Position numbers and translations under genes: made by a program
Notes under the pieces: model-generated
What the model was told of the DNA's origin: nothing
Databases searched by the model: none
What the model saw: the letters and a program-made list of their open reading frames with translations, nothing else
Shown: piece after piece, positions 1 to 26,767 of the stretch
Numbering within the stretch: position 1 is the first letter of the stretch
How the letters are laid out: the number at the start of each line of letters is the position of its first letter
DNA from: Fibrobacter sp.
GTDB taxonomy: Bacteria; Fibrobacterota; Fibrobacteria; Fibrobacterales; Fibrobacteraceae
DNA: 27,092 nucleotides
Reading direction: 5' to 3'
Assembly: GCA_017520105.1 (NCBI GenBank)
Contig: JAFWRL010000128.1
Coordinates: forward strand, 1-27,092

Positions 1-759
1 AGCTGAACCCACGGCATCGGAACCGCCCGCAGCCTCCGGCGCCGTCAGCAAGAACGATACGAGCTTTCCGTCCGTGAGCTTGAGCGCACCTTCAATGGCC
101 TCGCGCAAACGGCTCATGTTCTTGCGTTCCAGCGTCAAGCGGTCAATCACCACTTCAATCGTGTGCTTCTCGTAACGCACCAACAGCGGCACTTCTTCGA
201 GCCTGTAAATCGTCCCATCGACACGCACGCGGACAAATCCATTTTCCTTGAGCTCCGCGAGTTCCTTGCGGTATTCACCCTTGCGCTCCTGCACAATCGG
301 CGCCATCACCAAAATCTTTTTGTTCTCATCGCTGGCGTAAAGGTTATCTACAATCTGATCCACCGACTGCGCCTGAATCACCTTGCCGCACTTGGGGCAA
401 TGCGGAACGCCGAGGCGCGCAAACATCAAACGGTAATGGTCCAAAATCTCGACCACAGTACCCACCGTACTGCGCGGATTACGGTTCACCGTCTTTTGGT
501 CAATCGAAATCGTCGGCGAAATCCCGCGAACGCTTTCCACATCCGGGTGCTTCATGCGCCCAATAAACTGGCGCGCGTACGCCGAAAGCGATTCCACAAA
601 GCGGCGCTGCCCTTCCTGGAAGACCGTATCAAAAGCAAGGCTCGACTTGCCCGAGCCCGAAACGCCCGTTACCACGACAATCGAGTCGCGGGGAATCGTC
701 AAATCGACATGGCGGAGGTTGTGTTCATGAGCATCGCGGATTTCAATAGATTTCGTCAT
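1..759 (-). CDS. uvrA: UvrA, excinuclease ABC subunit A (5' part; gene runs off the left edge)
   Basis: UvrA is the ATP-dependent damage-recognition subunit of nucleotide excision repair. It works in the cytoplasm as a dimer with UvrB. The first 253 codons are present; the rest lies left of base 1. The N-terminus reads MTKSIEIRDAHEHNLRHVDL. A UvrA-type Walker A follows at about residues 31-38 (GVSGSGKSS), then the family block FQEGQRRFVESLSAYARQF, the ISPTISIDQKTVNRNPRSTV block and a zinc-binding CPKC near residue 120. These identify the family without doubt. The start at 759 agrees with the usual UvrA N-terminus. There is no Shine-Dalgarno sequence. Instead a -10-like TATATT ends 7 nt before the ATG, so the mRNA may be leaderless. 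The gene is divergent from the FISUMP lipoprotein gene. Confidence 0.96.
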   Translation of the reverse strand, partial: MTKSIEIRDAHEHNLRHVDLTIPRDSIVVVTGVSGSGKSSLAFDTVFQEGQRRFVESLSAYARQFIGRMKHPDVESVRGISPTISIDQKTVNRNPRSTVGTVVEILDHYRLMFARLGVPHCPKCGKVIQAQSVDQIVDNLYASDENKKILVMAPIVQERKGEYRKELAELKENGFVRVRVDGTIYRLEEVPLLVRYEKHTIEVVIDRLTLERKNMSRLREAIEGALKLTDGKLVSFLLTAPEAAGGSDAVGSA

Positions 760-1006
760 GACCGCAAATATAGGAAAATACCGCCAAATTGTCTAAAAAA
801 TAGTGAACATTTGGATAGAAATTTTATTAATCCGAGCAGGGAGCGCCTGTATGCGACGACCTCGCAAGTCATCCCATTTTTATTTTGAGCACACTGATTC
901 AAAAGTTTCCAAAAATATTGGTTTTATTGCCAATAAATTACTATTTTAATCAGATGGGATGTTAGAAAAACGTAACCGATTTTATTGCCTATGTATTGGA
1001 GATTAC
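760..1006. other. Divergent intergenic region uvrA / FISUMP gene
   Basis: This stretch holds the uvrA promoter and an AT-rich run before the FISUMP gene. TATTGG (916-921) and CCAATA (930-935) form a perfect 6-bp inverted repeat with an 8-nt spacer, a possible operator or hairpin. I see no convincing sigma-70 pair for the rightward gene and no small ORF worth calling. Confidence 0.5.
767..795 (-). promoter_or_regulatory. uvrA promoter, probably giving a leaderless mRNA
   Basis: On the minus strand TAGACA (790-795) and TATATT (767-772) are separated by 17 bp, a good sigma-70-type pair. The -10 ends 7 nt before the uvrA ATG, so initiation would fall on or within a base or two of the start codon. 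The transcription start is inferred. Confidence 0.6.
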
Positions 1007-3490
1007 ATGAGACAACATAAAATTCTCTATTTCTTTGTACTAGCATTCCTGTTTATCACAGTTGCCTGCGGCGATGATTCATCAGCATCTGCCGATACCG
1101 ATGACGATTCCTCATCCTCGAAGGTAGAGGATTCTAGCCCCAGCAAATCCAAAAACAGCTCAAGTTCAAAAAAAGATTCTCTATCGAGCAGCTCCACATC
1201 CAGCTTTTCGTCATCTTCATATACACTGGTTTACGATCCTTCCAAAGTCAAGAAGGGATCATTCGTTGACAAGCGAGATGGTCACGAATACAAGACCATC
1301 ACAATTGAAAAGCAAACCTGGATGGCCCAAAACTTAAACTACGCACCCGCATCAAGCCTGGGTTGCCACGAAGACGACGACAAGGATTGCAGCAAGTATG
1401 GAAGAATCTACACTTGGGCAGAAGTTGTTGATTCAACACATTCTTTGTGCGGAGTCCAAGATGAATGTGCATTTCCATTTCAAGGAATTTGCCCAGATGG
1501 TTGGAGAATTCCCCAAAGGCGCGATTGGGAACTTTTATTTGATACTTTATACGGAGGGCGCCCAATAATTCCTTCTTGGTATGGTTTAGCGACAATCCTA
1601 TATTCAAAAGACAATGAATACCCCAAGGGGACCGACGATTACGGTTTTTCCGTCAGAATTCCAAAAAATCGAACTTCTGCACAACTTTTTATCACAACAG
1701 AACTGGCCCATCGTCTTAATGGAGGGATATCAGGCATATGGGGTATATACTTTGACAACCCAGAAGTTGGGACAACCTCCCTTGATGACAATTCGCCTGC
1801 ATCGTTAAGATGCATTAAGGACGATCAACCGCCTACCTTAAACGACCCCATGAATACGTTTGGCGTTCGTGGTGACGACCGAAAATTTTGCAGTAAAGCG
1901 GAACCTAACTCCAACGTCAGCAGTCGTACCTGCAACAAAAACGGTGTAAACACCTGTAACGACTATGTGAACGAAGATGGAAGCATAAAGCTTGGAAGCA
2001 GCGTTATATATTTCGAAGAAAAGGGCAAGAAGGCATGCCCTTTCGAATGGCACATACCTAGCAAAAGTGAATGGTATTCAATTTTTAGCGCTGTCGGCGG
2101 AGAATGTTACGCAGGTTATATGCTCAAAGCACAAGAAGGATGGGGAGACGACTACGCCTTTGATGCCATCGGTCTCGGCATCAAACCCACAGACGGCACA
2201 GACGCCAGATTTCTGGTCGGAGGCACAAAAAAAGGAGAAATTGTAGGTCGAGTCGTACTTGCGAAAGGTTCGAACATCGCCAAATTCGAAGACGACACCT
2301 CGAACACCTCAGGATTGCTTTGCGTAAAGGGGCGCTTGATAGACGACACCTTAAGTTTTATGAATCCCAGCCTTGAATACGGGACATTTACCGATACCCG
2401 TGACAACAGGACATACAAGACAATAAATATCGGGCACACTCAATGGATGGCAGAAAACCTCAACTATGTAACGGACAGTAGCATTTGTTATAACCATTCC
2501 AAAGATGATTTCTACTGCAATCGCTATGGACGGTTCTATCTATACGAAGAAGCCAAGACGGCGTGCCCTGCGGGGTGGCGCCTCCCCACGAAAGAAGATT
2601 TTGATACGTTGGTGTATATAGGAGCTCCTTATAAGCATGCCCGTTATTTGGTGTCCGAGGAGAACACTACCTACAAGGGAAACAACAAATCAGGATTCTC
2701 GCTTATAATGATGGGGTATATGTGGAATGACAGGGATGATTTTGGTGATGCAGCCACCTACCTGTGGTCAAGTACGAAGGCCAGTGATACTACCGTATAT
2801 ACCTTGTCCGCCTATAAAGTTAATTATACAGATTCTGCGTTTGTTTCTAAAGCGTACGACAAAAAAGGCTCTAAGTTTAACGTCCGCTGCGTGAGCGACG
2901 AGAAGGTCCGATATGGATACATGGGTACTTACGGCACGCTTACGGATAGTCGCGACGGACACGAATACAAGACCGTAGAAATCAACGGTGCAACATGGAT
3001 GGCAGAGAACCTAGATTATGCATCAAGCACAGCCTCTTGCCATCGTGATTCTTGCGACATCAACGGGATGCATTACACGTATCCGTTCTCGGCAGACACC
3101 TTGGAATCCCTGTGCCCCGAAGGCTGGCACATATCGACTACCGCAGATTGGGACAGTCTGCTCGCTTTCGTCCGCGCAAAAGACTCATTAAATTACGCAT
3201 ACGATTTGAAAGACCCATTTGCATGGCCGTCAAACGAAAAAGGCAACGATAAGTACGGTTTTGGCCTTCTTCCCAATACCTGTTATTACGACAACTCCGG
3301 CTACGATTTAGTAAATGTCCGAGACGAATCGGTCGCATGCATCGGTGCCGAGAGTCCTGACGGAAATGCTGGTTACTACTACATTCATTCGACAAACAAT
3401 GTTAATAGCATTTATAGGAATATTTATAAAAGAAACATTCAAAAAGACAGCCGTTTCCGCTACGGAATCCGCTGCGTCAAGGACAAATAG
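1007..3490 (+). CDS. Lipoprotein with four FISUMP-type repeats
   Basis: An 827-residue predicted surface lipoprotein. I place the start at 1007, not at the in-frame ATG at 959: GGAG lies 5 nt upstream, and the protein then begins with a lipoprotein signal whose lipobox ends ITVAC (Cys21). A serine-rich linker (about 22-72) follows. Then come repeats of the Fibrobacter succinogenes major paralogous domain at about 80-272, 281-441, 455-633 and 642-827. Full repeats share a G-T/S-F/L-x-D-x-R-D start, T/QWMAENLNY, CPxGWR/HxP/S and a closing RCV/IKD. Repeat 2 lacks the QWMAENL half and is truncated or diverged. The conserved cysteines suggest disulfides outside the cytoplasm. The molecular function of FISUMP domains is not established; a role in surface binding is inference. 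The gene is monocistronic and convergent with the HIRAN-like gene. Confidence 0.9.
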   Translation: MRQHKILYFFVLAFLFITVACGDDSSASADTDDDSSSSKVEDSSPSKSKNSSSSKKDSLSSSSTSSFSSSSYTLVYDPSKVKKGSFVDKRDGHEYKTITIEKQTWMAQNLNYAPASSLGCHEDDDKDCSKYGRIYTWAEVVDSTHSLCGVQDECAFPFQGICPDGWRIPQRRDWELLFDTLYGGRPIIPSWYGLATILYSKDNEYPKGTDDYGFSVRIPKNRTSAQLFITTELAHRLNGGISGIWGIYFDNPEVGTTSLDDNSPASLRCIKDDQPPTLNDPMNTFGVRGDDRKFCSKAEPNSNVSSRTCNKNGVNTCNDYVNEDGSIKLGSSVIYFEEKGKKACPFEWHIPSKSEWYSIFSAVGGECYAGYMLKAQEGWGDDYAFDAIGLGIKPTDGTDARFLVGGTKKGEIVGRVVLAKGSNIAKFEDDTSNTSGLLCVKGRLIDDTLSFMNPSLEYGTFTDTRDNRTYKTINIGHTQWMAENLNYVTDSSICYNHSKDDFYCNRYGRFYLYEEAKTACPAGWRLPTKEDFDTLVYIGAPYKHARYLVSEENTTYKGNNKSGFSLIMMGYMWNDRDDFGDAATYLWSSTKASDTTVYTLSAYKVNYTDSAFVSKAYDKKGSKFNVRCVSDEKVRYGYMGTYGTLTDSRDGHEYKTVEINGATWMAENLDYASSTASCHRDSCDINGMHYTYPFSADTLESLCPEGWHISTTADWDSLLAFVRAKDSLNYAYDLKDPFAWPSNEKGNDKYGFGLLPNTCYYDNSGYDLVNVRDESVACIGAESPDGNAGYYYIHSTNNVNSIYRNIYKRNIQKDSRFRYGIRCVKDK

Positions 3491-3501
3491 ATTCAACCAG
3501 C

Positions 3502-3545
3502 CTAGCGCCCTTGCGCAGCAAGATTCTGATTTTGCAAGGCGCTAG
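3502..3545. terminator. Imperfect inverted repeat between convergent genes
   Basis: CTAGCGCC (3502-3509) plus TTGC (3511-3514) pairs with GCAAGGCGCTAG (3534-3545), leaving one bulged C and a 19-nt loop. It sits between the two convergent stop codons and overlaps the stop of the minus-strand gene. There is no U-run on either strand, so intrinsic termination is uncertain. Confidence 0.4.
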
Positions 3546-4552
3546 AACTTCAAACGCAAGACAATCGCATTCTCGAAGTAATCGGGATTTGCACCCAACC
3601 TCCAAAGCGACGAACCGTAAGCGAACAAGTTCGGACGCGCCTGACGGAGAATCGCCGCCGCAGTCGCCCGCAGATACCCGGCCTTGCTCTTGGAGCGAAT
3701 TCCCTTGAATACCTTTCCGGGATCTTCGATAGAAACGCTAATAGCGTTATGGTCATGAGGATTGTAGGGTTCCGCCTGCACTTTGGATGCAAGCGAAGCA
3801 TAGAGTTCATAACGCTTTTGACCGATCTTGGAAATATCGTCGGCAAAGTGAGCCACCACCGCACCGTCAATCGCATCATCGACCTTTTCAAGCGAAGAAA
3901 CCCATGGATGGTTTGTCGCCCCAACAATTCCGATGGTGAAATCAAAATGGCGTTTTTCCGCAAAATAGCGGACAAACATTTCTTCAAAGGATTCCTTTTG
4001 CGGTTCTGGCTTGAGCGCGTCACGGGCAGCAGCAAAGAGAATCGACGACACATCCGTCTCGCCGGTAGAAATCATCGCGTTCGCCTTGTAGACATGTTCA
4101 AATCCGGAGTCACCGCGCAGACCGCCAAAGACGTTCACGAAAAGCGCCTCGGCGGCAACCGGACGCACGATATGCAACACCAGCGGCAAGAAGTTCGCAA
4201 ACACCGTCGAGCGGCGGCGCAAGAGTTCAGCAACAAGTAACCCATCGCATTCACGGACCGCAAGCAGGAGCGCCCCCACATGCAGCAAGAACGAATACTG
4301 CCCCGCATCCATATTTGCGATTTCGGCTGGCAAATAAACGCTGATTTCAGCCTGCAATTCACGAGGCAAGTAAGAATACCACGAAGGCGTAAAGTAGGCG
4401 CTCCCCTCGACACACTGCATCTGGGCAAGTTCATCGGCCTCGGGGTTCGATTCGCCCGCATAATCGAGAATTCCCGTCTCGCTACGGGTAAAGGAATAAA
4501 TGCCTGTGCCCTTAGGCGTTTCAATTTTGACGTAGAAGGTTTCGTTAGCCAT
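3542..4552 (-). CDS. HIRAN-like domain protein of unknown function
   Basis: A 336-residue soluble protein with no signal peptide or membrane segment. The start is supported by a strong AAGGAGG just upstream of the ATG on the minus strand. The C-terminal third (about 205-315) has the hallmark of HIRAN domains: an FTIGIVG strand, then EPYNPHDHNAISV, which fits the EPxNPxDxNAIxV signature, then KAGYLR, which fits GYLPR. HIRAN domains bind DNA ends in HLTF/Rad5-like helicases; in bacteria they often occur alone or fused to other domains. The N-terminal ~200 residues resemble nothing I recognise. No helicase, nuclease or ATPase motif is visible, so this is a stand-alone form. A role in DNA metabolism is only inference. 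It is monocistronic. Confidence 0.65.
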   Translation of the reverse strand: MANETFYVKIETPKGTGIYSFTRSETGILDYAGESNPEADELAQMQCVEGSAYFTPSWYSYLPRELQAEISVYLPAEIANMDAGQYSFLLHVGALLLAVRECDGLLVAELLRRRSTVFANFLPLVLHIVRPVAAEALFVNVFGGLRGDSGFEHVYKANAMISTGETDVSSILFAAARDALKPEPQKESFEEMFVRYFAEKRHFDFTIGIVGATNHPWVSSLEKVDDAIDGAVVAHFADDISKIGQKRYELYASLASKVQAEPYNPHDHNAISVSIEDPGKVFKGIRSKSKAGYLRATAAAILRQARPNLFAYGSSLWRLGANPDYFENAIVLRLKF

Positions 4553-4662
4553 TGTCGGCCTCCTTTTTTGAGGTTTTCAATGGTAATATAGGTTTAAGTT
4601 ATGTCACAAAATGACATTTTCAAGACAAGACCGGAATACGTGGGTAAAAAAGAGCCCATCCC

Positions 4663-4691
4663 TTGCCAAAACGGTGCAGTTTAGCTATATT
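4663..4691 (+). promoter_or_regulatory. Promoter of the tRNA-Ala gene
   Basis: TTGCCA (4663-4668), a 17-bp spacer and TATATT (4686-4691) form a near-consensus sigma-70 promoter. The expected start near 4698 leaves a short leader before the tRNA at 4711. Confidence 0.7.
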
Positions 4692-4710
4692 CACCCCGCT
4701 ATCTAGCTAT

Positions 4711-4783
4711 GGGGATATAGCTCAGTTGGTAGAGCGACAGGTTCGCAATCTGTAGGTCATGGGTTCGACTCCCACTATCTCCA
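4711..4783 (+). tRNA. tRNA-Ala (anticodon CGC)
   Basis: A 73-nt cloverleaf. The acceptor stem is GGGGATA / TATCTCC with a G3-U70 wobble pair and discriminator A73, the identity elements of alanyl-tRNA synthetase. The D-stem is GCTC/GAGC. The anticodon stem is ACAGG/TCTGT with loop TTCGCAA, giving anticodon CGC for GCG codons. The T-arm contains TTCGACT; its outermost pair (49-65) is an A-C mismatch. CCA is not encoded. The gene stands alone between its own promoter and terminator. Confidence 0.93.
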
Positions 4784-4786
4784 CGC

Positions 4787-4818
4787 AAAAGAGGCAAGCA
4801 AACGCTTGCCTCTTTTGT
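4787..4818. terminator. Intrinsic terminator after tRNA-Ala, probably bidirectional
   Basis: A perfect 9-bp stem GAGGCAAGC (4791-4799) / GCTTGCCTC (4804-4812) has a 4-nt loop, a T-run after it and an A-run before it. It can stop the tRNA transcript on the plus strand. On the minus strand it could also serve the barrel gene ending at 4884. Confidence 0.88.
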
Positions 4819-4883
4819 TTAGCACCGATACAAGAATCTCATCCCTCAAAGCTGCGAAGCAGCGACCTCACACCTCATGACCT

Positions 4884-6101
4884 CTAAATATCCCACTTGG
4901 CACCGAGTTTCAACTGGGTACGCGTATAGCTTTCGGTGTATTTCTCTTGGTAATATTGGGGCAATTCATAGCGCTTATACTTGCGGTCCAGTCCAAGATA
5001 AAAATTCATCTTCCAATATTGCCACGAGACCGTTAACCCGCACGAGCCATCGAACTTTTTAATTTTCTTGTATTCTCCATCGGGGCCACCGACGGCAAAG
5101 CCATAGAACAAACTCACATTCGCTTCAACCGCGATGCGGTTCTTAAACTTGTATGAAATTCTGGGACGGAAAACCGGTCCAAGCCAAGATCCTAAAGTCT
5201 GGCGGAAAACAAGACTTTCTATCGAGGGCTCATCCAGCAGGGGTGTCGCCCCATAAGACAACTCATAAGCATCCTTCGACTGGAGGTATTCATCATAAGC
5301 TTGGTTATACGCATTTATCGACTGATCAAGCGCCACATAATCAAAGGCAGAGTCAGCCTCGAATTTCGCACCTAGATAAACCGTCCCGTTCAAGCCCTCG
5401 GCAGCAGTCCTGTGCCACGATGCGTAAAACGCAAACGACATCGGTCCCGATGTTCGGTAAAACGCCCACGCCACTGTGCCTATGCGCTGTTTCTCGAATC
5501 GGTACCAATCCTTTTCAAACCAAAGCAAAAAATCGGACGAAAGTTCCTCGCCCTCGATATTGAAATCGTAACCCACATCCAGGAGTATTCCACGCCCCAT
5601 AAGCGTGTATTCCAATCCAAGGACCAGATTCCAGTCATTCGTATCGAGCAACGGCATGTTATCGTTATTCAAAAAGTAATCGGCCTGTACAGATGCGGCA
5701 AACGTATGCGCCCACGCCCCGACCTCGTAATCGACATATGGGTTCACGTTCAAGAAAAGGTCCCCGCCTTTTTCCCCTTCGTCCATGCCGGTCTCTTTGT
5801 AGTGCAGTCCATAGAGTCCAAGTTCGCCCGCCACATGGAACTCCCACGACGATTCAGCTTTGCCCAAACCCGCGGAATCACCGTCCGTATCGCCTAAAGC
5901 CGCCTTGTATTCGCGGATAATCTCTTGAATTTCTTCAGTATATTCGCCCGGCAGTGCGGCAGCATCTTCGAACGCCTTGAGTGCAGCAGGAATATCGCCC
6001 GCCTCTTCGGCCTTCATGGCACGATAATATGCTTCCTCCTGCGTCTCGGCAAAGAGCGCAGTCGCAAGCATCACCAACATCAAACAGAACAAACGTAACA
6101 T
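4884..6101 (-). CDS. Predicted outer-membrane beta-barrel protein with N-terminal TPR-like helices
   Basis: A 405-residue secreted protein. The signal peptide is MLRLFCLMLVMLATALFA with cleavage before ETQ. Residues 20-70 form a helical hairpin pair (YYRAMKAEEAGDIPAALKAFEDAAALPG) that looks like one TPR. The rest, from about 88, alternates aromatic and polar residues with frequent turns and ends in LKLGAKWDI, typical of outer-membrane barrel strands. It is the last gene of the minus-strand cluster, 21 bp after the small secreted protein gene. I cannot name a family. Pore, adhesin or structural roles are all possible. Confidence 0.72.
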   Translation of the reverse strand: MLRLFCLMLVMLATALFAETQEEAYYRAMKAEEAGDIPAALKAFEDAAALPGEYTEEIQEIIREYKAALGDTDGDSAGLGKAESSWEFHVAGELGLYGLHYKETGMDEGEKGGDLFLNVNPYVDYEVGAWAHTFAASVQADYFLNNDNMPLLDTNDWNLVLGLEYTLMGRGILLDVGYDFNIEGEELSSDFLLWFEKDWYRFEKQRIGTVAWAFYRTSGPMSFAFYASWHRTAAEGLNGTVYLGAKFEADSAFDYVALDQSINAYNQAYDEYLQSKDAYELSYGATPLLDEPSIESLVFRQTLGSWLGPVFRPRISYKFKNRIAVEANVSLFYGFAVGGPDGEYKKIKKFDGSCGLTVSWQYWKMNFYLGLDRKYKRYELPQYYQEKYTESYTRTQLKLGAKWDI

Positions 6102-6122
6102 TACTTTCTCGGGAAATCTCCC

Positions 6123-6641
6123 TTATTTCCAGCCAAACGGCTTAACAGGTCGAACCTTCGTTTTTTTCACGTGTTCATACGGATTGAACGGATGTACCGG
6201 TTCTTTAACGTTTTTGCCATCGGGACGGCCCATCGGTACCATAGGAGCTCCAAACGGAGGGAACCCATGAGGACCTTTTATTTGTTCGTTCTCGTCCATT
6301 TTCTGTTCACGGACAAGTTCATCCTTTGGCTTATCGATTTTCTTTTCGATAGGCGGAACGGGCATTTCCAAGGCAGAAGACTTCACGGACGCTTCGCGCA
6401 TCTCGTTCTTTTCGAGAGCAGTCTTGTTTCTCAAGTCCTTGAGAATCTGTTCGCGGGCGGCACGGCGTTCTTCACGCAGTTTCTGCCAATCCACGTTTTC
6501 TTTTTCCGAGAACTTCGGAACGTTGCTCAAAGCCTCACGGGCTTCGACTGGCGTCGGAACGCTCGCTTCTGGACGAGATTCCATATCGCCTGCCATTGCG
6601 GTTGCAGCCATCACCGCAGATGCCATTACGATTTTTTTCAT
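6123..6641 (-). CDS. Small secreted Pro/Lys/Glu-rich protein of unknown function
   Basis: A 172-residue protein. The start is set at 6641 (MKKIVMASAVMAATAMAGDM), not at the in-frame ATG at 6671, because AAGGAG precedes it and the signal peptide then begins correctly. The mature part is highly charged (KLREERRAAREQILKDLRN) and then proline-rich (HGFPPFGAPMVPMGRPDG), with a basic tail ending KPFGWK. No domain is recognised; it looks disordered and periplasmic. It lies between the sigma-54 activator and the barrel gene, so it is a candidate periplasmic partner of the barrel. That link rests on position only. Confidence 0.7.
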   Translation of the reverse strand: MKKIVMASAVMAATAMAGDMESRPEASVPTPVEAREALSNVPKFSEKENVDWQKLREERRAAREQILKDLRNKTALEKNEMREASVKSSALEMPVPPIEKKIDKPKDELVREQKMDENEQIKGPHGFPPFGAPMVPMGRPDGKNVKEPVHPFNPYEHVKKTKVRPVKPFGWK

Positions 6642-6685
6642 GACCACACTCCTTACATTGAGTTTCAACATTTTGCTAAAAACTC

Positions 6686-8140: not shown

Positions 8141-8166
8141 AACAAAGCCCTTTAAGCAATTCGCGG

Positions 8167-10100: not shown

Positions 10101-10107
10101 GGTAGTA

Positions 10108-10113
10108 AGTATA
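10108..10113 (-). promoter_or_regulatory. -10-like TATACT of the TPR-kinase-activator cluster
   Basis: On the minus strand TATACT is followed by exactly 7 nt and then the ATG at 10100. No convincing -35 is seen. Together with the absence of a ribosome binding site this suggests a leaderless transcript. Confidence 0.45.
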
Positions 10114-14656: not shown

Positions 14657-14662
14657 TATTTT
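14657..14662 (+). promoter_or_regulatory. -10-like TATTTT of dusA
   Basis: TATTTT ends exactly 7 nt before the dusA ATG at 14670. No Shine-Dalgarno site is present. It lies in the 18-bp gap after the cyclase gene. Confidence 0.4.
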
Positions 14663-16034: not shown

Positions 16035-16130
16035 ATGCCTTGCGGAAAGAAAAGAAAGCGCAGGAAGATTGCGACCCACAAGCGTAAGAAACGCCGTCGT
16101 CGTGACCGTCACAAAAAGAAACTTCGCTAA
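16035..16130 (+). CDS. AURKAIP1/COX24-like small basic (ribosome-associated type) protein
   Basis: A 31-residue protein beginning MPCGKKRKRRKIATHKRKKR, with about two thirds Lys/Arg/His. It closely resembles the 28-36-residue AURKAIP1/COX24-domain proteins of Bacteroidetes and relatives, which share the MPxGKKRKR...ATHKRKKR pattern. The eukaryotic relative AURKAIP1 is the mitoribosomal protein mS38, so a small-subunit ribosome role is likely by homology. It has its own near-consensus promoter, a GGAG ribosome site and a downstream intrinsic terminator, so it is a stand-alone transcript. It is too short for default gene finders. Confidence 0.88.
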   Translation: MPCGKKRKRRKIATHKRKKRRRRDRHKKKLR

Positions 16131-17258: not shown

Positions 17259-17285
17259 GCTCGGCAATCATAGAAATCAAAATTT

Positions 17286-17316: not shown

Positions 17317-17374
17317 AGTATTGAAAGCAAAATTCCTTGTGTGTATATTTTAAACCAGTCCTAAAAATGGGTAG

Positions 17375-17629
17375 CTGACACATCTGACAGAAAAGGGGGT
17401 CGAACGCTACAACAGGCTCACCACTAACCGCCCGAAAGTCCTTGCAAAAGACGGTACGGAATGCTCCGAAGTGAAAGACACTGGTTCCTACATCTTTGAA
17501 TGTTCCGAAAAGCTGGCGAAGGTGTATTTCCCGCAACTTCTAGGCGAAGCAGAAATTCTCGAACCGAGAGATTTGCGCCTCTGGTTCAAAGAGCAATTCG
17601 AAGAAGCAAGTAAAATTTACAAGCGCTAG
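17375..17629 (+). pseudogene. 3' remnant of a WYL-domain regulator gene
   Basis: About 84 codons are open from just after a TAG (17372-17374) to a TAG at 17627, with no start codon or ribosome site. The translation ends with YFPQLLGEAEILEPRDLRLW, FKEQFEEASKIYKR. This matches the C-terminal WCX/WYL extension of WYL-domain transcription factors (strand ending SYIFECSEKLAKVYFPQLLG, then PRDLRLWFKEQFEEASKIY). The N-terminal HTH and WYL core are absent. A direct repeat CTGACA-3 nt-CTGACA (17375-17380, 17384-17389) marks the left junction. It is probably what is left after a deletion or replacement at the argF-bioB site. Confidence 0.65.
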
Positions 17630-17653
17630 ATTTCGTCATAAACTAAGTACATC

Positions 17654-18790: not shown

Positions 18791-19001
18791 TGTTTGTCTC
18801 CATTGCTTTTTTTTCGGGGGACGCCCCGTAAAGCGAGTAGAAGAAAGTCCTCTACCTTTTATATTAACACGCTTTTTTGAAGATTTTGGTCTAACAATTT
18901 TGCGTAAAACATTCGTTACAATTCGCAATTCAATAAAGACAGCATAGTATCCAATGTAGCTCCCCCTTTTTCTATATTTGCGCACGAAAAAGGAGTTGCA
19001 A

Positions 19002-19973: not shown

Positions 19974-20000
19974 AAAATTTTCTCGAAAGCCATAATTATG

Positions 20001-20006
20001 TAAATT
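20001..20006 (+). promoter_or_regulatory. -10-like TAAATT of the NlpC/P60 gene
   Basis: TAAATT ends exactly 7 nt before the ATG at 20014; there is no Shine-Dalgarno site. The -35 region is weak (TTTTCT, 17 bp upstream). Confidence 0.45.
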
Positions 20007-20013
20007 TGAATTG

Positions 20014-20841
20014 ATGGCTTTTAAAAGTCGCACCATTATGGGAATTGCAATTGCGTGCAGTTTGATACTCTCGAACTGCGCTTTTCCCGTGCGCCCTGGA
20101 TACGATAGAAAAAGCGGTTCATACAAGCGTTACAGGGTTCCAAAGCAAGCTCCTGCCGAAATCGACACCACCACAATCAATCCGCAAGAAGAACTGGTGC
20201 TGGAAGAAAAACTTGCAGCCGGTTCTAGTATAACAGACACCGCGAGCACCCTCGACGCGAAAGACACGAGTGCGCAAAATTCTACAGTGCAGGCAGGCCA
20301 ATCACAACCAAACGTATTGGCATCGCTCGACTCAACCGGAAACAAAGAACAAAATAGCACTAGCGAACAAACTCAAAAGCAGAACGCCAAAGCTACAGAC
20401 AGCACGGCCATAAAAAACTCCGCGAAGAAAGCCGAAAAGAAAGATTCCTCAACCAAAAAGAAAACAACCGCAAGGCCGACAAATCTTGAAAAGTACGCCA
20501 GGGAATGGCTCGGAGCCAAGTATGTGTATGGAGCCGCCAGCAAAAAAAAGACAGACTGTTCCGGCTACGTGATGCAAGTCTATAAAGGTTTTTACGGGAT
20601 TTCATTAGACCACAGTTCCCAACACATGTTTGACGACGGACGTGGCTATTCCATCAGGCGCTCAAAGCTTCAGGAAGGAGATCTCGTCTTTTTCGGTAAC
20701 TTCTGGAAAATCAGTCACGTCGGAATTTATTTGAAAGGGAACCGGTTCATCCATGCCAGCACAAGCAGCGGCGTAATCATCACCCCTATGGACGACAAAT
20801 ACTGGGCGTCGAAATACAAAGGCGCAAGACGGTTTAAGTAA
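20014..20841 (+). CDS. NlpC/P60 peptidoglycan hydrolase lipoprotein
   Basis: A 275-residue lipoprotein. The signal ends in LSNC (near residue 23). A long Ser/Thr/Lys/Gln-rich, probably disordered linker (about 40-155) precedes the NlpC/P60 domain (about 155-275). The catalytic triad is complete: Cys182 in KTDCSGYV, His235 in ISHVGIYL and His247 in RFIHAST. The family cleaves peptide bonds in the stem peptides of peptidoglycan; by its lipobox this member is periplasmic and membrane-attached. The start at 20014 has no ribosome site and a -10-like hexamer 7 nt upstream. pheA starts 17 bp after its stop; the functions are unrelated. Confidence 0.93.
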   Translation: MAFKSRTIMGIAIACSLILSNCAFPVRPGYDRKSGSYKRYRVPKQAPAEIDTTTINPQEELVLEEKLAAGSSITDTASTLDAKDTSAQNSTVQAGQSQPNVLASLDSTGNKEQNSTSEQTQKQNAKATDSTAIKNSAKKAEKKDSSTKKKTTARPTNLEKYAREWLGAKYVYGAASKKKTDCSGYVMQVYKGFYGISLDHSSQHMFDDGRGYSIRRSKLQEGDLVFFGNFWKISHVGIYLKGNRFIHASTSSGVIITPMDDKYWASKYKGARRFK

Positions 20842-20845
20842 TTAC

Positions 20846-20851
20846 TATCTT
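20846..20851 (+). promoter_or_regulatory. -10-like TATCTT of pheA
   Basis: TATCTT ends exactly 7 nt before the pheA ATG. No Shine-Dalgarno site is present in the 17-bp gap after the previous gene. Confidence 0.35.
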
Positions 20852-20858
20852 TCTTCTC

Positions 20859-21728
20859 ATGAAAAAGATTGCATTCCAGGGCCGTCGCGGGGCCTACAGC
20901 GAAAGTGCGGCATACCACCTCTTCGGAAACGATATCGAAGTCGTGCCCATGGACACGTTCGAACAAATTTTCCAGGGTATCGAAACGGGTGCCGTTGACG
21001 GTGGAGCCATCCCTATCGAAAATTCAACAGCGGGTTCCATTTACGACAACTACGACTTGCTTTACAAGTGGCGCCATCCGATTGTGGCCGAAGTCAAGTT
21101 GCAAATCGAACATACGCTCTGCGCTTTGCCGGGCACCAAACTCGAAGACCTTCATGAAGTATTGAGTCACCCGCAAGGTCTTGCGCAATGCAGCCGCTTT
21201 TTCGGACAACATCCGAACATCAAGAGCACCGCATTTTACGACACCGCCGGAAGCGCCGAAGAAGTTGCGAAACGCGGAGACAAGCATGTGGGTGCCATCG
21301 CGAGCGCTTACGCGGCTAAGTTCTACGGTCTCGAAATTTTGAAGCAAGGCCTCGAAAACCTGCCGGGCGTAAACTTCACACGTTTTTACGCCATCCAAAA
21401 GACGGCCGTTGAACTGCCTGAATTCACGAAATCGAACGACGGTCCCGCCATCAAGACGACACTTCTGTTCATGCTGAGCGATTCGGGCAAGTCCGGAGCC
21501 TTGTACGAAGCACTAGGTTGCTTTGCCAAGCGCAACTTGAACCTCACCCGTATCGAAAGCCGTCCGCATCCCGACCGCCCGTGGGAATACATTTTCCACC
21601 TGTCGTTCGAAGGGAGCCCGAAGGATCCGAACGTTGTGGAAGCACTCAAGGAGCTGCAGCAATACACGGACTTTATCTACCGCCTCGGAAGCTTCCGTGA
21701 AGGAAAAACGGAAAAACTGAGCTACTAA
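20859..21728 (+). CDS. pheA: Prephenate dehydratase (monofunctional, with ACT domain)
   Basis: A 289-residue cytoplasmic enzyme that converts prephenate to phenylpyruvate in phenylalanine synthesis. The catalytic domain (about 1-185) begins KKIAFQGRRGAYSESAA and has AIPIENSTAGSI, EVLSHPQGLAQC and the NFTRFYAI signature with the catalytic threonine. The C-terminal ACT domain (about 200-280) has the phenylalanine-binding ESRPHPDRPWEYIFH (ESRP motif), so feedback inhibition by phenylalanine is expected. There is no chorismate mutase domain. It has no ribosome site; it may be co-transcribed with the gene before it or use its own start-proximal -10. Confidence 0.95.
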   Translation: MKKIAFQGRRGAYSESAAYHLFGNDIEVVPMDTFEQIFQGIETGAVDGGAIPIENSTAGSIYDNYDLLYKWRHPIVAEVKLQIEHTLCALPGTKLEDLHEVLSHPQGLAQCSRFFGQHPNIKSTAFYDTAGSAEEVAKRGDKHVGAIASAYAAKFYGLEILKQGLENLPGVNFTRFYAIQKTAVELPEFTKSNDGPAIKTTLLFMLSDSGKSGALYEALGCFAKRNLNLTRIESRPHPDRPWEYIFHLSFEGSPKDPNVVEALKELQQYTDFIYRLGSFREGKTEKLSY

Positions 21729-21772
21729 GCATAGAGAAAGGCAACCTCGAAATAAACGCGAATACAAGAAAT

Positions 21773-21820
21773 AATGGATCCCCTCCCTGACGGTCGAGGA
21801 TGACAAGTCGGGGTGACAGC
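21773..21820. repeat. REP-like intergenic sequence before rph
   Basis: A non-coding stretch with the ATGGATCCCC...GAGGATGACAAG...CGGGGTGACA pattern common in dispersed intergenic repeats. The 10-mer CGGGGTGACA at 21809-21818 recurs at 22591-22600 after rph. Confidence 0.4.
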
Positions 21821-21831
21821 AAGGAGAATAT

Positions 21832-22557
21832 ATGGCATACGAACGTACAGACAGAAAACCTGAAGAATATCGCAACCTCAAGATGACCACCGGCTTTATT
21901 TCGAGCGCCGATGGTTCCGTCCTCATCGAAATGGGACGCACCCGCGTCATCTGCAACGCAACGCTCCTCCCGAAAGTTCCGGACTGGCTCGCCGGTCGCG
22001 ACACGGGCTGGATTACGGCTGAATACAGTTTGCTCCCGCAGAGCACGGGCAAGCGCGTAGAACGCGAACGCAAAGGCGCCAGCGGTCGCACGCAAGAAAT
22101 CCAGCGCTTGGTGGGCCGTTCGCTGCGCGGCGCAGCCGACCTTGCAGCCCTCGGCGAGAACGCCATCGTGGTCGATTGCGACGTCATCGAAGCTGACGGC
22201 GGCACCCGTACCGCTAGCATCATCGGAGGCTTTGTCGCTCTCGCCATCGCTCTCAAGAAAATCAAGGAACGCCTCGGCATCACGCAGCAGATTCTCAAAC
22301 ACGGCATCACCGCCATCTCCGTGGGCGTCGTCGATGGCAATCCGCTTTGCGACCTCTGCTATGTGGAAGATTCCGCTGCCGACGTCGATATGAACGTCGT
22401 GATGCAAGACGCGAAGAACTTTATCGAAGTGCAAGGCACCGGCGAACACGCAAGCTTCGACCGCGCCATGCTCAATACGCTCCTCGACCTCGGCGAAAAC
22501 GCCTGCAAGGAAATCTACAAGAAGCAGATGGAATTGATTGGCGGCGAACTGCCGTAG
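21832..22557 (+). CDS. rph: Ribonuclease PH
   Basis: A 241-residue phosphorolytic 3'-5' exoribonuclease that trims tRNA 3' ends; it works as a hexamer in the cytoplasm. Landmarks are the start RTDRKPEEYRNLKMTTGFIS, WITAEYSLLPQSTGKR, GRTQEIQRLVGRSLR, VDCDVIEADGGTRTASI and LCYVEDSAADVDMNVV. Length and ends match the family. AAGGAG lies 6-7 nt before the ATG. It is convergent with the lipoprotein gene ending at 22653 and flanked on both sides by REP-like sequence. Confidence 0.97.
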   Translation: MAYERTDRKPEEYRNLKMTTGFISSADGSVLIEMGRTRVICNATLLPKVPDWLAGRDTGWITAEYSLLPQSTGKRVERERKGASGRTQEIQRLVGRSLRGAADLAALGENAIVVDCDVIEADGGTRTASIIGGFVALAIALKKIKERLGITQQILKHGITAISVGVVDGNPLCDLCYVEDSAADVDMNVVMQDAKNFIEVQGTGEHASFDRAMLNTLLDLGENACKEIYKKQMELIGGELP

Positions 22558-22570
22558 TCAAAGGCAAAAA

Positions 22571-22600
22571 GGCGACCCCGCAACAATGTGCGGGGTGACA
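22571..22600. repeat. REP-like hairpin after rph
   Basis: ACCCCGCA (22575-22582) / TGCGGGGT (22589-22596), a perfect 8-bp stem with a 6-nt loop and no U-run. It contains the same CGGGGTGACA 10-mer as the element before rph. Confidence 0.5.
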
Positions 22601-22621
22601 AAGTAAGACAAATGTCCAGTG

Positions 22622-22648
22622 AAAACCCGCCGCGAGTGCGACGGGTTT
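22622..22648. terminator. Terminator hairpin between rph and the lipoprotein unit
   Basis: AAACCCG (22623-22629) / CGGGTTT (22642-22648) with an inner CGC/GCG stem, one symmetric mismatch and a GAGT loop. On the minus strand it is followed by a short T-run, 5 bp after the lipoprotein stop codon. It could act in both directions. Confidence 0.7.
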
Positions 22649-22652
22649 CATA

Positions 22653-24308
22653 TTATTTGATAACCAATCCCAGCTTTCCTGATACGAACACATCTTCGCC
22701 CGGCGAACAGAAATTCGTTTTTTCGGAATACTTGCCAAGCCCTCTTATATTAATTCGGCTCTTAGTATTCGCTTCGCCCTGTACTGCAAAGAGAATCGAT
22801 GTCATAAATGTCGTGCTGACTTCACTAAACCCCGACATAAAATAATTTTTCCAATCGAGACATACCGTCTTTAACTCAATGGACTTCGGCAATGTTGTCT
22901 TAGGCATTCTTGAAAAATCTCCAAATCCACTAGTTTGAGCATAAGTCAAAACAACTTCCAAGTCAGATTCCGAAGCATACGTTACACACAAGCCGCCCCA
23001 ACTTGAGATATTAGCCTTAGCCACTAGCGAATTATCATCCATAGGATCAACTACGCCCGCGACATGAAAACCTACGCCCAAATAACCTTCCTTTGAAAAT
23101 TCAAGCGAACCGCAAACGCCCATACAGTAATCAAAAACTTGATCGGTCGTAGTATAATCAATCCCGGACGTTGACGGATAAACCACTTTTCCGTTACCAG
23201 ATTCTTCATCTCCAAAGCTGAACCAATATCCAGAAGTTTCGGTACCATTATCTAGTCCTGTTTCCACGTACGTTAGAGGAAGTGCAAATCCATTCCACAT
23301 TTCGCTAACTTCTTTCGGCTCAGTGCAATCTCCGCGGGGACTGCTACTCGACGAAGCACTTTGCCCAGAACTGGAACTGCGCAATACGATAAACCCTTCG
23401 TCACCACTACCCTTTGGCAAAACATAGGCATAGCCATCGACCTCGCACGCTCCATTCGCATCGTATTTACCAATAGCGGCAATAGAAAGGTGTCCCTTTG
23501 TACTATCGGCCCCCGGCATAACGAAACGAATGCTAGACGCATGTTTCGAAGCCTCGGCTGCATTCAAAGCATCCCATGTAACGCATTTTTCTACAAATTC
23601 AGTTGATTTACCAAATTCAGCCTGATAAAAGGTATCGTCGTCTGTATAAAGCCTCAAGAGCACATCCCCATCCGCAGCGTACGTCACACAGATGCCACCC
23701 CAATCGCTGATGTCACCATCCCTTAGGACGTACGAGACTTTGGGCTCCTCAATGCCCGCAACATTGAATCCCATTCCCCCAAAAATTTCAGCAGAGGTTC
23801 CTTTTCTAAAAATAAATTCAGCGCAATAACTTCCACAGAATTCTAAAAGAGCCACCATACCTTCATATTCATCCCCATCATAAGCTTCTGTCACATTCGG
23901 CATGTGAATTTCAGTAACACCGCCATCAGGATCATCGCTAAAATTATACCAAAACCCAGCATAATGTAAGCTATCAGGATCAAATCCTGTATTCACCAAA
24001 TAGTCGCCCTTGCTGGCATTCCACAAACAAGCGGCCGTATTTTTCGGAGCTTTTGCACTACTTGAGGAATTTGCAGTCACGCTACTCGATGACATCGTGA
24101 CATTTTCGCTGCTCGACGCGACATTCGCGGCACTCCCGCCAACATCGTCGCTACTCGTTCCCGCAACAGACGAACTGCTTTCGCCGGACACCACCGGAGT
24201 CCCGCTAGACTCCGGCGACACAGAACCACCCAACGGATTGTCATCGGAACAGGCGACTAGACAAAGCATCGCCACGCTTGTGGCAAGCCTCAAGATTCTC
24301 CTAAACAT
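22653..24308 (-). CDS. Lipoprotein with two copies of an unnamed Cys-containing domain (paralog A)
   Basis: A 551-residue predicted surface lipoprotein. AGGAGG lies about 10 nt before the ATG. The lipobox is LVAC (Cys20), then a Ser/Thr/Gly-rich linker to ~90. Two copies of a ~200-residue domain follow (about 93-292 and 338-530), split by a second Ser-rich linker. Each copy has LWN or MWNG, a GYWFSFGD-type strand, a CxGxCG-like pair (YCMGVCG; FCGSYCA in copy 1), a DWGGICVTYA strand, CV/LDW and a closing IxGLGKY. The pattern of strands and disulfides resembles carbohydrate-binding beta-sandwiches, but I cannot assign a family. It is the second lipoprotein of the unit, 27 bp after its paralog. 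Confidence 0.82.
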   Translation of the reverse strand: MFRRILRLATSVAMLCLVACSDDNPLGGSVSPESSGTPVVSGESSSSVAGTSSDDVGGSAANVASSSENVTMSSSSVTANSSSSAKAPKNTAACLWNASKGDYLVNTGFDPDSLHYAGFWYNFSDDPDGGVTEIHMPNVTEAYDGDEYEGMVALLEFCGSYCAEFIFRKGTSAEIFGGMGFNVAGIEEPKVSYVLRDGDISDWGGICVTYAADGDVLLRLYTDDDTFYQAEFGKSTEFVEKCVTWDALNAAEASKHASSIRFVMPGADSTKGHLSIAAIGKYDANGACEVDGYAYVLPKGSGDEGFIVLRSSSSGQSASSSSSPRGDCTEPKEVSEMWNGFALPLTYVETGLDNGTETSGYWFSFGDEESGNGKVVYPSTSGIDYTTTDQVFDYCMGVCGSLEFSKEGYLGVGFHVAGVVDPMDDNSLVAKANISSWGGLCVTYASESDLEVVLTYAQTSGFGDFSRMPKTTLPKSIELKTVCLDWKNYFMSGFSEVSTTFMTSILFAVQGEANTKSRINIRGLGKYSEKTNFCSPGEDVFVSGKLGLVIK

Positions 24309-24335
24309 AACACCCTACCTCCTTCATTTATAAAT

Positions 24336-25934
24336 TTAATAAACGGTTTTGGGGATGGAGCAAGCCCCTTTAGTAGAATATTTGCCGATACCCGCTATAT
24401 TAAACTGGTTTCTGCCGCCGTTTTCTGAACTCTTTACAATAAACTGCACCGTACTCACTGCCGTTCCCAGATTCGGGACACTCGATTGAAAATCATCCCA
24501 GGCAACACACTTTTCGATAAGCCCTCCCGATGCAGGGAGAGAGGCTTTCGGAGAATTTTCGTACGGGACATCTTTTACAACAACATTTAAGTAAGCATCC
24601 TTTTCGGAATAGTAAGTGATGCAAATGCCTCCCCAGTCCTTGATATCGGCAAATTTAGGCGTTCCATAGCAAGTATTACCTTCACAAGAAGTCAATGTAT
24701 CTTCAGCAATATTGAAGGCTACAGCAGACGCGGCATAATCCGCTTTTTCCAAAGTAAATTCCATCGTTCCGCAAAAGCCTTTACATTCAACGATAATCGG
24801 CTCATACATATAGGGTTCATACTCCATTTCCCTATACGCGGGGAATTCTATTTTAGAATACGCCCCCTCGGGAGAAGCATCGAAATCATACAGCATCCCG
24901 ACAAATTCATCCCGGTCGTTATAACCCGTATTTACAATGCCAGACCCATTCAAACCCTTCCACAAGCAAGTCAATGAATCGCTATCATCAGTGATCAAGC
25001 CGACATCCTGTTCATTCACACCGCCATCACGCCACTGCGGAAGATTCTCGTCGTAAGTACTGACACCTACAATATTGAATTTTCCCGAGCCATCGGAATT
25101 ACCCATAAATACAAAGTTAATCGCCTTGATTTTTTTGGCAGCCTCTTCGCCAGAATAGACCTTGCTCAATTTAGCCGCATTGTATTCTGCCCAGGCAGAC
25201 ACCTTAAAATCGCTCCACTTGGCGCAACGCGTAATGGCGGCATCAGGTTCAAGCATCTTCTTAAGCGTCGGTGCATTTGTCACCGTTTTCGGGAGTGTTA
25301 TCATCGGATAAGTCATAAACGGAGACACATTGCTAATCGTATCTATGCCACCGACATCCACATTGAGATAGACATTCACCGGATACTCAGAAGCATACGT
25401 TACACAGATGCCACCCCACGCGGAAACATCCGCGGTAGAATCCTCTTCGGCAAGCATGATGCCAATACCCGCCCAAGGCATCGTCTCCGAGCCACGCAAC
25501 TCAACTGTACCGCACACGCCTTTGCAATATTCAAAAACAGGATCCAATGTATTATCAGAATATTCATTGCCCATCGACACAGGCCAGCTGATGGTTGACT
25601 GGCCCCCTTCCGCATCATCGCCATAACTGAACCAATACCCCGTATTTTCGTTATTGGTATTTATCTTGTAGTCAACCTCGCCGTTCCACAAATCAAACTT
25701 CGGAACAGACTCTACGCTACTAGAGGACTGGGCTGCAGAAGAACTGTTCACGACAGACGAACTGCTTTCAACAGCAGATGAGCCACCCACTGCAGACGAA
25801 CTACTTTCACCATGGGCAATCGGATTGCCGTCTTCCACGACTCCCGCCGTATTGTCATCCGAGCACGCCACAATACCAAGCGCAAACGTACAAGCAGAAA
25901 CGCACGCCGATATGTCAAGAAGTTTCTTAAGCAT
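24336..25934 (-). CDS. Lipoprotein with two copies of an unnamed Cys-containing domain (paralog B)
   Basis: A 532-residue lipoprotein paralogous to the next gene downstream. GGAGGAGG lies 9 nt before the ATG. The lipobox is GIVAC (Cys24), then a poly-Ser linker (about 40-78). Domain 1 (about 80-300) has LWNGEVDY, GYWFSYGDD, YCKGVCGTVEL, AWGGICVTYA and CAKW. Domain 2 (about 325-525) has LWKGLNG, ECKGFCGTMEF, DWGGICITYY, CVAWDDF and FNIAGIGKYS. The start codon overlaps the stop of the TIGR02147 regulator gene (ATGCTTAA), so translation of the two is probably coupled. A cell-surface binding role is likely but unproven. Confidence 0.82.
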   Translation of the reverse strand: MLKKLLDISACVSACTFALGIVACSDDNTAGVVEDGNPIAHGESSSSAVGGSSAVESSSSVVNSSSAAQSSSSVESVPKFDLWNGEVDYKINTNNENTGYWFSYGDDAEGGQSTISWPVSMGNEYSDNTLDPVFEYCKGVCGTVELRGSETMPWAGIGIMLAEEDSTADVSAWGGICVTYASEYPVNVYLNVDVGGIDTISNVSPFMTYPMITLPKTVTNAPTLKKMLEPDAAITRCAKWSDFKVSAWAEYNAAKLSKVYSGEEAAKKIKAINFVFMGNSDGSGKFNIVGVSTYDENLPQWRDGGVNEQDVGLITDDSDSLTCLWKGLNGSGIVNTGYNDRDEFVGMLYDFDASPEGAYSKIEFPAYREMEYEPYMYEPIIVECKGFCGTMEFTLEKADYAASAVAFNIAEDTLTSCEGNTCYGTPKFADIKDWGGICITYYSEKDAYLNVVVKDVPYENSPKASLPASGGLIEKCVAWDDFQSSVPNLGTAVSTVQFIVKSSENGGRNQFNIAGIGKYSTKGACSIPKTVY

Positions 25935-26754
25935 GTTTTTTTTCCTCCTCCCACGTCAGCGGGAACAACTGTAAATTCAACCTATAGACACGACCGGCAC
26001 CACGGCCTTTCAAAGCGATTTGAGCAATCCGCTTGCGGCATGCATCAATTTCTTGCACAATTTGCTCGTAATCCTCGTCCGAAATCCCCATGGTAAGCCC
26101 AGAGTAATTACGCTCCGTCGCAGAAAATTTTTCAAGAGCTTCATCCGCAAAGCGAATCATTTCATGGTGCATGGAGCGCATCGCAACAGACATGATTTCA
26201 GGAGAACCCGTCAAATGCTTATCGACTTGTTCATAGGCATCTCCATTTTTCTTCAACAATCCCGCATTCACCATAAAATCGAGCGACTTGCGAACATCCA
26301 CCGCCGAGACATCCAAGCAGCAACGCCTCGCTATTTCACCCGGAGTCGCACCCGGCATTACCGCCGCAAGTTCTCTCACCACCGGATGAATCCAAGTTTC
26401 AAAAAACTTGTACGCATCGCCGTCAACAACCTTAACACTATTATCTTTAGCCAGTTTCAGCATCGCCTCAAAAGCGATTTTACGGTCATCTTCCGTTTTG
26501 GCATGGCAGCATTCTACCATCAACTTAAAGTAATCAAGTTCATACCCCACCAAGCGCATCGCGGCACCGACTTTTTCTGCCCCGACAGATGAAAGGCGCG
26601 TTTTTTTTTCGCATACAAGTTTCAGGTACGTTGGCGAAGTAAATCCAGCAATGCGAGCAAACTCACGCCAAGAAAACGATGATACGCGTTTCCGTTCATC
26701 ATAATAATCCTGCATGTAGCAGCGATAATCCTGATACTCCGTAATCGATTTCAT
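25927..26754 (-). CDS. TIGR02147-family protein (putative transcriptional regulator)
   Basis: A 275-residue soluble protein. The start is placed at 26754 (MKSITEYQDYRCYMQDYYDE); the extension to 26850 is AT-rich intergenic sequence. The opening, I-x-x-Y-x-D-Y-R-x-Y-x-x-D-Y-Y-x-x-R-K, then FSWREFARIAGFTSPTYLKLV (a helix-turn-helix-like segment) and the central EIARRCCLDVSAVDVRKSLDFMVNAGLL winged-helix-like segment match TIGR02147, a paralogous family described from Fibrobacter and few other genomes. DNA binding is inferred from these two helical segments. The gene overlaps the downstream lipoprotein start by 8 bp, suggesting that it controls or is tuned with the lipoproteins. No ribosome site; TATATT ends 7 nt before the ATG. 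Confidence 0.88.
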   Translation of the reverse strand: MKSITEYQDYRCYMQDYYDERKRVSSFSWREFARIAGFTSPTYLKLVCEKKTRLSSVGAEKVGAAMRLVGYELDYFKLMVECCHAKTEDDRKIAFEAMLKLAKDNSVKVVDGDAYKFFETWIHPVVRELAAVMPGATPGEIARRCCLDVSAVDVRKSLDFMVNAGLLKKNGDAYEQVDKHLTGSPEIMSVAMRSMHHEMIRFADEALEKFSATERNYSGLTMGISDEDYEQIVQEIDACRKRIAQIALKGRGAGRVYRLNLQLFPLTWEEEKKHA

Positions 26755-26761
26755 ATCTATA

Positions 26762-26767
26762 AATATA
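26762..26767 (-). promoter_or_regulatory. -10-like TATATT of the TIGR02147 operon
   Basis: On the minus strand TATATT is followed by 7 nt and the ATG at 26754. No good -35 is present, which would fit a promoter that needs an activator. A leaderless start is inferred. Confidence 0.5.

Follow-up and report, generated by a model that had tools for sequence, protein, structure and literature searches.

Gene starts in the window

The contig JAFWRL010000128.1 of Fibrobacter sp. (assembly GCA_017520105.1), 27,092 nucleotides (nt) long and referred to as the window, carries six genes with a hexamer of the form TAnnnT at a fixed distance from the start codon: uvrA, a gene for a TPR lipoprotein, dusA, an NlpC/P60 gene, pheA and a TIGR02147 gene. 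An earlier note on this DNA had proposed that these genes lack a Shine-Dalgarno (SD) sequence and that the hexamer is a -10 box fixed against the ATG, leading to leaderless mRNAs beside a second, SD-led class. All six hexamers were confirmed in the window sequence, with a gap of exactly 7 nt to the ATG in each case (Table 1). Among 23 curated starts, nine are without a GGAG-type SD (GGAG, GAGG or AGGA in positions -20 to -4), and all six boxed genes belong to these nine. Of the 14 SD calls, the one at 6101 is marginal, with a GGAG at the distal limit of this range.

The remaining three SD-less starts (8140, 9366 and 12957) have no box and follow a co-directional gene at a distance of 26, 11 and 44 nt, respectively. 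The restriction to genes outside operons had been applied unevenly in the note. Only 18 nt (dusA) and 17 nt (pheA) separate the start from the preceding co-directional stop codon, which for pheA is that of the NlpC/P60 gene, so that both boxes would be internal promoters.

Six boxes at nine SD-less starts correspond to p = 4e-8 at a chance rate of 2.8%. The note had put this rate at about 2-3%, which is about right: TAnnnT was found in 1.0% of cases at offset 7 (the offset being the distance in nt between hexamer and start codon) before 16,086 non-start ATGs and, ahead of SD-less starts, at a rate of 2.8% per offset over the range 14-44. Since the six genes were picked post hoc, the genome sample described below is the test that counts.

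Table 1. Boxes and one SD sequence identified in the window, with the number of relatives that have TAnnnT at offset 6 or 7 (30 loci per gene).
Element	Position	Strand	Distance to gene start	Relatives at offset 6 or 7
uvrA, box TATATT	767..772	-	7 nt to ATG (759-757)	26/30 (genus relatives)
TPR lipoprotein gene, box TATACT	10108..10113	-	7 nt to ATG (10100-10098)	26/30
dusA, box TATTTT	14657..14662	+	7 nt to ATG 14670	27/30
NlpC/P60 gene, box TAAATT	20001..20006	+	7 nt to ATG 20014	22/30, 4 more at offset 8
pheA, box TATCTT	20846..20851	+	7 nt to ATG 20859	27/30
TIGR02147 gene, box TATATT	26762..26767	-	7 nt to ATG (26754-26752)	17/30 (relatives or paralogues)
bioB (SD-led class), box TATATT in TTTTTCTATATTTG	18973..18978	+	23 nt before ATG 19002	
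bioB, SD GGAG	18992..18995	+		
tRNA-Ala (4711-4784, non-translated gene), box CTATATTC	4686..4691	+	19 nt before the tRNA gene	

Genome samples and calling of gene starts

The genus sample consists of 332 kb of genome G006 (100% complete) and 319 kb of genome G001 (71% complete; 346 kb with the window), from which 472 genes were pooled. G001 is the genome nearest to the window, with 38% of the sampled 31-letter words in common. The window uvrA fragment matched the top three rows of the collection, all of them Fibrobacter metagenome-assembled genomes, with 97, 97 and 100% identity over the matched segments.

Genes were called blind to upstream motifs. TAnnnT was then tallied by its distance to the start, and the expectation was derived from offsets 14-44. 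A first gene finder based on codon usage truncated secreted proteins, and a higher-order version shifted some starts downstream. Because of these misplaced starts, three motif-blind start rules were compared, the middle one of which was used for later counts; some of its starts are still wrong, e.g., that of the window TIGR02147 gene.

Distance between box and start codon

In the 472 genes, TAnnnT was found at offset 6 or 7 before 85 of the 261 SD-less genes (14.6 expected, p = 3e-41) compared with one of the 211 SD genes. The non-start ATGs showed no peak, with TAnnnT at 0.6-1.6% at every offset. Both parts of the sample contribute, with 43/134 SD-less genes in G006 (8.3 expected) and 42/127 in G001 with the window (6.3 expected). 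For G006 and the window, the three start rules gave 16 + 29 of 155, 18 + 26 of 153 and 17 + 29 of 143 SD-less genes at offsets 6 and 7, respectively. The narrower motif CTAnnTT was located 16 times at offset 6, 32 times at offset 7 and at most four times at any other offset of SD-less genes; before SD genes it was absent at offsets 0-19 and then appeared mainly at 20-34. The earlier note had named the lack of a TAnnnT peak at -13 to -8 of SD-less genes as a finding that would speak against its proposal, and in the samples of the relatives this peak is present. The spacing of exactly 7 nt applies to all six window genes; in the genus samples, offset 6 is used as well.

The box is by no means found at every SD-less gene; even among divergently transcribed SD-less starts only 37 of 83 have it at offset 6 or 7. 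A calibrated count over 470 genes, in which any plausible in-frame start with C or T at -1 was accepted and decoy offsets were subtracted, gave 14-15% leaderless candidates with TAnnTT or TAnnnT and 11% with CTAnnTT. Judged by these motifs, about 15% of the genes in Fibrobacter (roughly one in seven) appear to be leaderless, and not all SD-less genes.

Consensus of the box and base at the start

The 51 aligned sites at offset 7 read tTTcTAtaTTt, with C at -14 in 69%. G makes up 2% at hexamer positions 3 and 4, T reaches 88% at position 5, and the hexamer is followed by T in 69%. The box is therefore tTTcTAHHTTt, which is more specific than TAnnnT. TTT is followed by G in 25% of the leaderless sites at offset 7, and TTGG was seen by eye at several tRNA boxes, while TATAAT is rare before Fibrobacter starts.

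Of the 85 boxed starts, 79 have C or T at -1, compared with 80/149 SD-less genes without TAnnnT at offsets 5-10 (p = 6e-11) and 32/55 where TAnnnT occurs at 14-30 only. Nearly all of the 85 boxed starts have A at +1. C or T followed by A is the usual pattern if the A of the ATG is the first RNA base.

The same box at SD genes and tRNA genes

A weight matrix was trained only on the 75 SD-less sites at offsets 6 and 7. It detected a box in 57 of 211 SD genes, never at an offset below 14; the offset was at least 20 in 55 of them and 20-38 in 47. Of the 111 SD-less genes with a box, 78 have it at offsets 6-8, which is partly by construction, and 15 at offsets 8-11. The sample contains 19 tRNA genes, 15 of which are without a close upstream tRNA; the box ends 11-19 nt before nine of these 15, compared with 1.06% in random DNA that was not A+T-matched. 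TTGACA is present above the box at several tRNA genes, and TTG lies 16-19 nt above it in 23 of 75 SD genes, with a peak at 17, as against 9 of 81 leaderless starts (p = 0.003). Because the box is found ahead of non-translated tRNA genes and mostly 20-38 nt upstream at SD genes, it can be regarded as a promoter.

Apart from this, the SD-led genes of the window include one for a very basic protein of 31 residues, MPCGKKRKRRKIATHKRKKRRRRDRHKKKLR (16035-16130, translated by eye), which may resemble small Bacteroidota proteins of the COX24/AURKAIP1-like or bL38-like kind.

Conservation in relatives

For each of the six genes 60 genomes were searched and 30 returned loci were read, nearly always one per genus genome (Table 1). 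For the TPR gene, the ATG closest to the expected position was taken as the start (with shifts of up to 13 codons), and for NlpC the first ATG of the frame. In pairs of loci with diverged upstream DNA (below 48% identity in -45 to -21 at the best of seven shifts), TAnnnT at offset 6 or 7 is retained by both members in 1186 of 1850 cases. The uvrA loci are evenly divided, with 13 at offset 6 and 13 at offset 7, none at 5 or 8, and four at 9, in rows which also match at 6. The TIGR02147 rows mix paralogues, as each genus genome gave 5-31 matches at E 1e-30; most of the rows outside offsets 6 and 7 have the box at 8-10, and 14/30 have TTGAC upstream.

In a named collection, ten Fibrobacterota uvrA loci were found, seven with the box at 6 or 7, one at 9 only, one with an SD and one with neither; the uvrA gene of Fibrobacteria bacterium AD312 has an SD. 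From outside Fibrobacterota, 69 uvrA loci were scored, 55 of them with an SD, 13 with neither and one with the box; for one additional locus no start was obtained.

Some further elements were observed upstream of these genes. At least two of the four uvrA loci with deviating spacing (L047 and L048) are without an SD and carry CTATATTT further up, at about 23 nt, possibly a step between leaderless and leadered expression. In many of the 30 uvrA loci of the genus (L020-L046), an element like TGTTCACTA was seen by eye inside the promoter or just upstream of it; it is a candidate damage-response operator. GTATCA occurs at -50 to -26 before the TIGR02147 ATG in 17 of 30 rows (L193-L222; in the window within 26755-26800), whereas the sets of the other five genes have it in 0 or 1 of 30 rows each, and from its place near the -35 region it may be an operator for autoregulation.

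Proposed leaderless transcription from a probable housekeeping promoter

The hexamers would be the core of the housekeeping promoter box tTTcTAHHTTt, with RNA synthesis most probably beginning 6-7 nt beyond TAHHTT. Where box and ATG are 6 or 7 nt apart, usually with C or T ahead of the ATG, the first RNA base would be the A of the start codon, as predicted for uvrA. We infer that such an mRNA is leaderless and that the ribosome starts on its bare 5′ AUG, where it would have to initiate without SD pairing. A box 20-38 nt upstream would leave a leader of about 13-31 nt which carries the SD. We give this reading, in which the distance of one and the same box from the ATG separates leaderless from SD-led genes, a probability of about 0.88. 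With it, the -10 box, the leaderless mRNAs and the second, SD-led class proposed from the window gain support from two genome samples, the relatives and the tRNA promoters.

Several observations weigh against it. TAnnnT at offset 6 or 7 is missing in 176 of 261 SD-less starts, part of which will be operon-internal, part wrongly called and part unexplained. The effect of gene context is moderate, as the 37 of 83 boxed starts among divergent SD-less genes compare with 13 of 57 among close same-strand ones (p = 0.012), which indicates that some boxes are inside tandem gene pairs. The -35 element is weak at leaderless starts, with the 9/81 given above and a slight excess at spacer 17-18, and the control for the tRNA boxes did not match their A+T content. 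Within the genus, four of 30 uvrA loci are without the spacing. Furthermore, the NlpC relatives have G before the ATG in 27/30 rows, so that this mRNA may start one base earlier; the window gene likewise has a G directly 5′ of its ATG, and a 1-nt leader is possible.

This last point also bears on the reading that the box is a promoter whose start site lies 1-5 nt before the ATG, giving very short leaders. The choice of start sites in bacteria is flexible, and the 15 of 111 boxes at offsets 8-11 fit such leaders. C or T at -1 in 79/85 boxed starts and the almost constant A at +1 argue for a start at the ATG itself, as does the spacing of 6-7 nt of the related box in Flavobacterium johnsoniae (PMC6847099), and very short leaders as the general explanation are unlikely. 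A T-rich element nearly confined to SD-less starts might also be a translation signal, i.e., an A/U-rich site for the ribosome or S1 as in SD-less Bacteroidota. Against it speak the presence of the box at tRNA genes, its position at 20-38 in most boxed SD genes with the TTG peak 17 nt above it, and a spacing of almost exclusively 6 or 7 nt that is coupled to C or T at -1, which make this explanation very improbable.

The start codons themselves could be wrong, with the true starts downstream and the box serving an ordinary leader, and under the coding-only start rule several genes of the window were indeed given an ATG further downstream. The protein matches of uvrA, pheA and dusA begin at query residue 1 in the 30 rows from which loci were obtained, the ATG shift is 0 in 30/30 rows for each of them, and the distance between box and ATG stays at 6 or 7 while the flanking DNA diverges; a general miscalling of this kind is hardly credible. 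Chance, helped by the selection of six genes once the pattern was visible, can practically be dismissed in view of the excess over expectation in G006, in G001 with the window, and in G039 (given below). The box abutting the ATG as a promoter for leaderless mRNAs is thus preferred.

Sigma factors

No canonical RpoD was found in G006 or G001, the best matches to the RpoD C-terminal model TIGR02393 scoring 185.5 and 188.8 bits against a cut-off of 354. None of the seven genomes searched passed this cut-off, compared with 9 of 14 control genomes; G047, G056 and G058 reached 309-317 bits with proteins of 499-513 residues containing FSTYATWW. The two best Fibrobacter sigma types have 282-303 residues and FISYAVWW. 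G001 and G006 each gave one more match to the RpoD family, the third (154-156 bits), which was left out. FISYAVWWIRQS is present both in the Fibrobacter sigma factor of 282-283 residues and in RpoD/SigA of B. finegoldii, to which the 283-residue type is 43% identical, and some public entries label this type as primary sigma factor or RpoD/SigA. As a separate observation, the two short types occur side by side in G001, G006, G039 and G044 (L370-L373, L377-L380) and differ after FISYAVWW, where one has SIQKALFEQ and the other NITRA; matches near the RpoD cut-off were absent there.

The 283-residue sigma factor is the one that presumably reads the box. On the other side, its link to the box is by alignment only, and in a FastTree tree of 14 sequences, from which G044b and G058b had dropped out, the Fibrobacter sigma factors do not group with those of Bacteroidota, which join canonical RpoD with a support of 0.989. 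An origin of the Fibrobacter sigma factor by inheritance as a Bacteroidota sigma factor is not supported by this tree. In G047, which has an RpoD of the canonical type, TAnnnT at offsets 6 and 7 is less strict (TAnnTT in 8/14), which suggests that leaderless starts are seemingly independent of the sigma change.

We consider it rather probable that the Fibrobacter lineage uses one box of Bacteroidota type, read by a short housekeeping sigma factor that replaces canonical RpoD, and places it 6-7 nt (leaderless) or 20-38 nt (SD-led) from the ATG with few cases between, and that genes switch between these states in evolution. Such switching is indicated by the genus uvrA loci outside offsets 6 and 7 and by the SD in Fibrobacteria bacterium AD312.

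Occurrence beyond the genus

SD-less genes with TAnnnT at offset 6 or 7 were also counted in other genomes, with the expectation floored at 0.2. Their number was 8/54 (0.4 expected) in G039 of the same order, and 10/97 (2.7 expected) in G044 and 14/84 (2.4 expected) in G047 of the same class. Outside the class, G053 is suggestive with 4/26 (0.8 expected, p = 0.007; 40 kb sample), whereas G056 (3/59, 1.0 expected), G058 (4/79, 4.8 expected) and G055 (1/10, 0.3 expected; 40 kb) are weak or negative. G043 of family f4 was unusable because of poor gene calls (62 genes, 22 of them with GTG, 0 matches) and says nothing either way. With annotated starts, the positive control Deinococcus MP1 gave 4/25 in a small sample and Escherichia coli 1/34; with our own gene calls E. 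coli gave 3/37 (1.6 expected). The signal holds in other families of the class; outside the class, the small samples range from suggestive (G053) to weak or negative.

Comparison with known systems

Among the publications listed by the literature searches, no report of leaderless Fibrobacter genes was found, and the passages covered in PMC10783764, PMC6728339 and PMC3155529 deal with its SD use only; the genome table of Zheng 2011, the motif scan across bacteria in Figure S7 of PMC12340547 and the Fibrobacteres logo in Figure S8 of PMC3155529 are outside this coverage and may hold one. The list of phyla with leaderless genes drawn from 953 genomes (Zheng 2011, PMC3160421) makes no mention of Fibrobacteres. 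SD use in Fibrobacter was intermediate or detectable in genome surveys (PMC6728339, PMC3155529), and its class is listed with a conserved anti-SD (PMC10783764). These surveys fit the SD-led half of the two classes.

The earlier note had compared the hexamers with the TAnnnT boxes of Deinococcus and Actinobacteria. As in Fibrobacter, the TA-led leaderless genes of Actinobacteria and Deinococcus-Thermus have a -10-like box about 10 bp before SD-less starts beside a GGAG class, a weak or optional -35 element and two upstream motifs per genome (PMC3160421, PMC12340547). In those bacteria, however, the three middle bases of TAnnnT are little informative, whereas the Fibrobacter box mostly excludes G at positions 3 and 4, has T at position 5 and is flanked by C and T. 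Several promoters of tRNA genes, SD genes and TIGR02147 genes resemble sigma70 promoters (TTGACA-N17-TATAAT) in having TTG or TTGACA some 17 nt above the box; TATAAT is rare, however, and the two Fibrobacter genomes have no RpoD match near the cut-off.

The base preferences bring the box nearer to TAHHTTTG of Bacteroidota than to the TAnnnT of Actinobacteria and Deinococcus. In F. johnsoniae the start site follows this housekeeping box (T-8 T-7 T-6 G-5) after 4-5 nt (PMC6847099); counted from the end of TAHHTT, the distance is 6-7 nt. Promoters of the Bacteroidota sigma-ABfr (PMC6847099, PMC9723704) and those of Fibrobacter share TA, two non-G bases, TTT and the distance from hexamer to start, further an A/T-rich tract upstream, a weak -33/-35 element and a sigma factor, primary in Bacteroidota and presumably so in Fibrobacter, without region 1.1 (about 286 residues in the former, 282-283 in the latter) and with an altered region 2.3-2.4. 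The final G of TAHHTTTG gives a mixed picture in Fibrobacter, being common by eye at the tRNA boxes and present in a quarter of the offset-7 sites. Leaderless mRNAs are few in Bacteroidota (5.5% in F. psychrophilum, PMC9723704), and 87% of the predicted leaders of F. johnsoniae exceed 10 nt (PMC6847099).

For Fibrobacter, these features provide a rule for calling gene starts, start sites predicted to the base, and designs of promoters for use in a cellulose-degrading rumen bacterium. Bacteroidota are without an SD, whereas Fibrobacter uses it. The findings point to a lineage with frequent use of both leaderless and SD-led initiation, placed between Bacteroidota (no SD, few leaderless mRNAs) and the SD-using bacteria. 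This intermediate position would make the loss of the SD and the change of the sigma factor separable for study.

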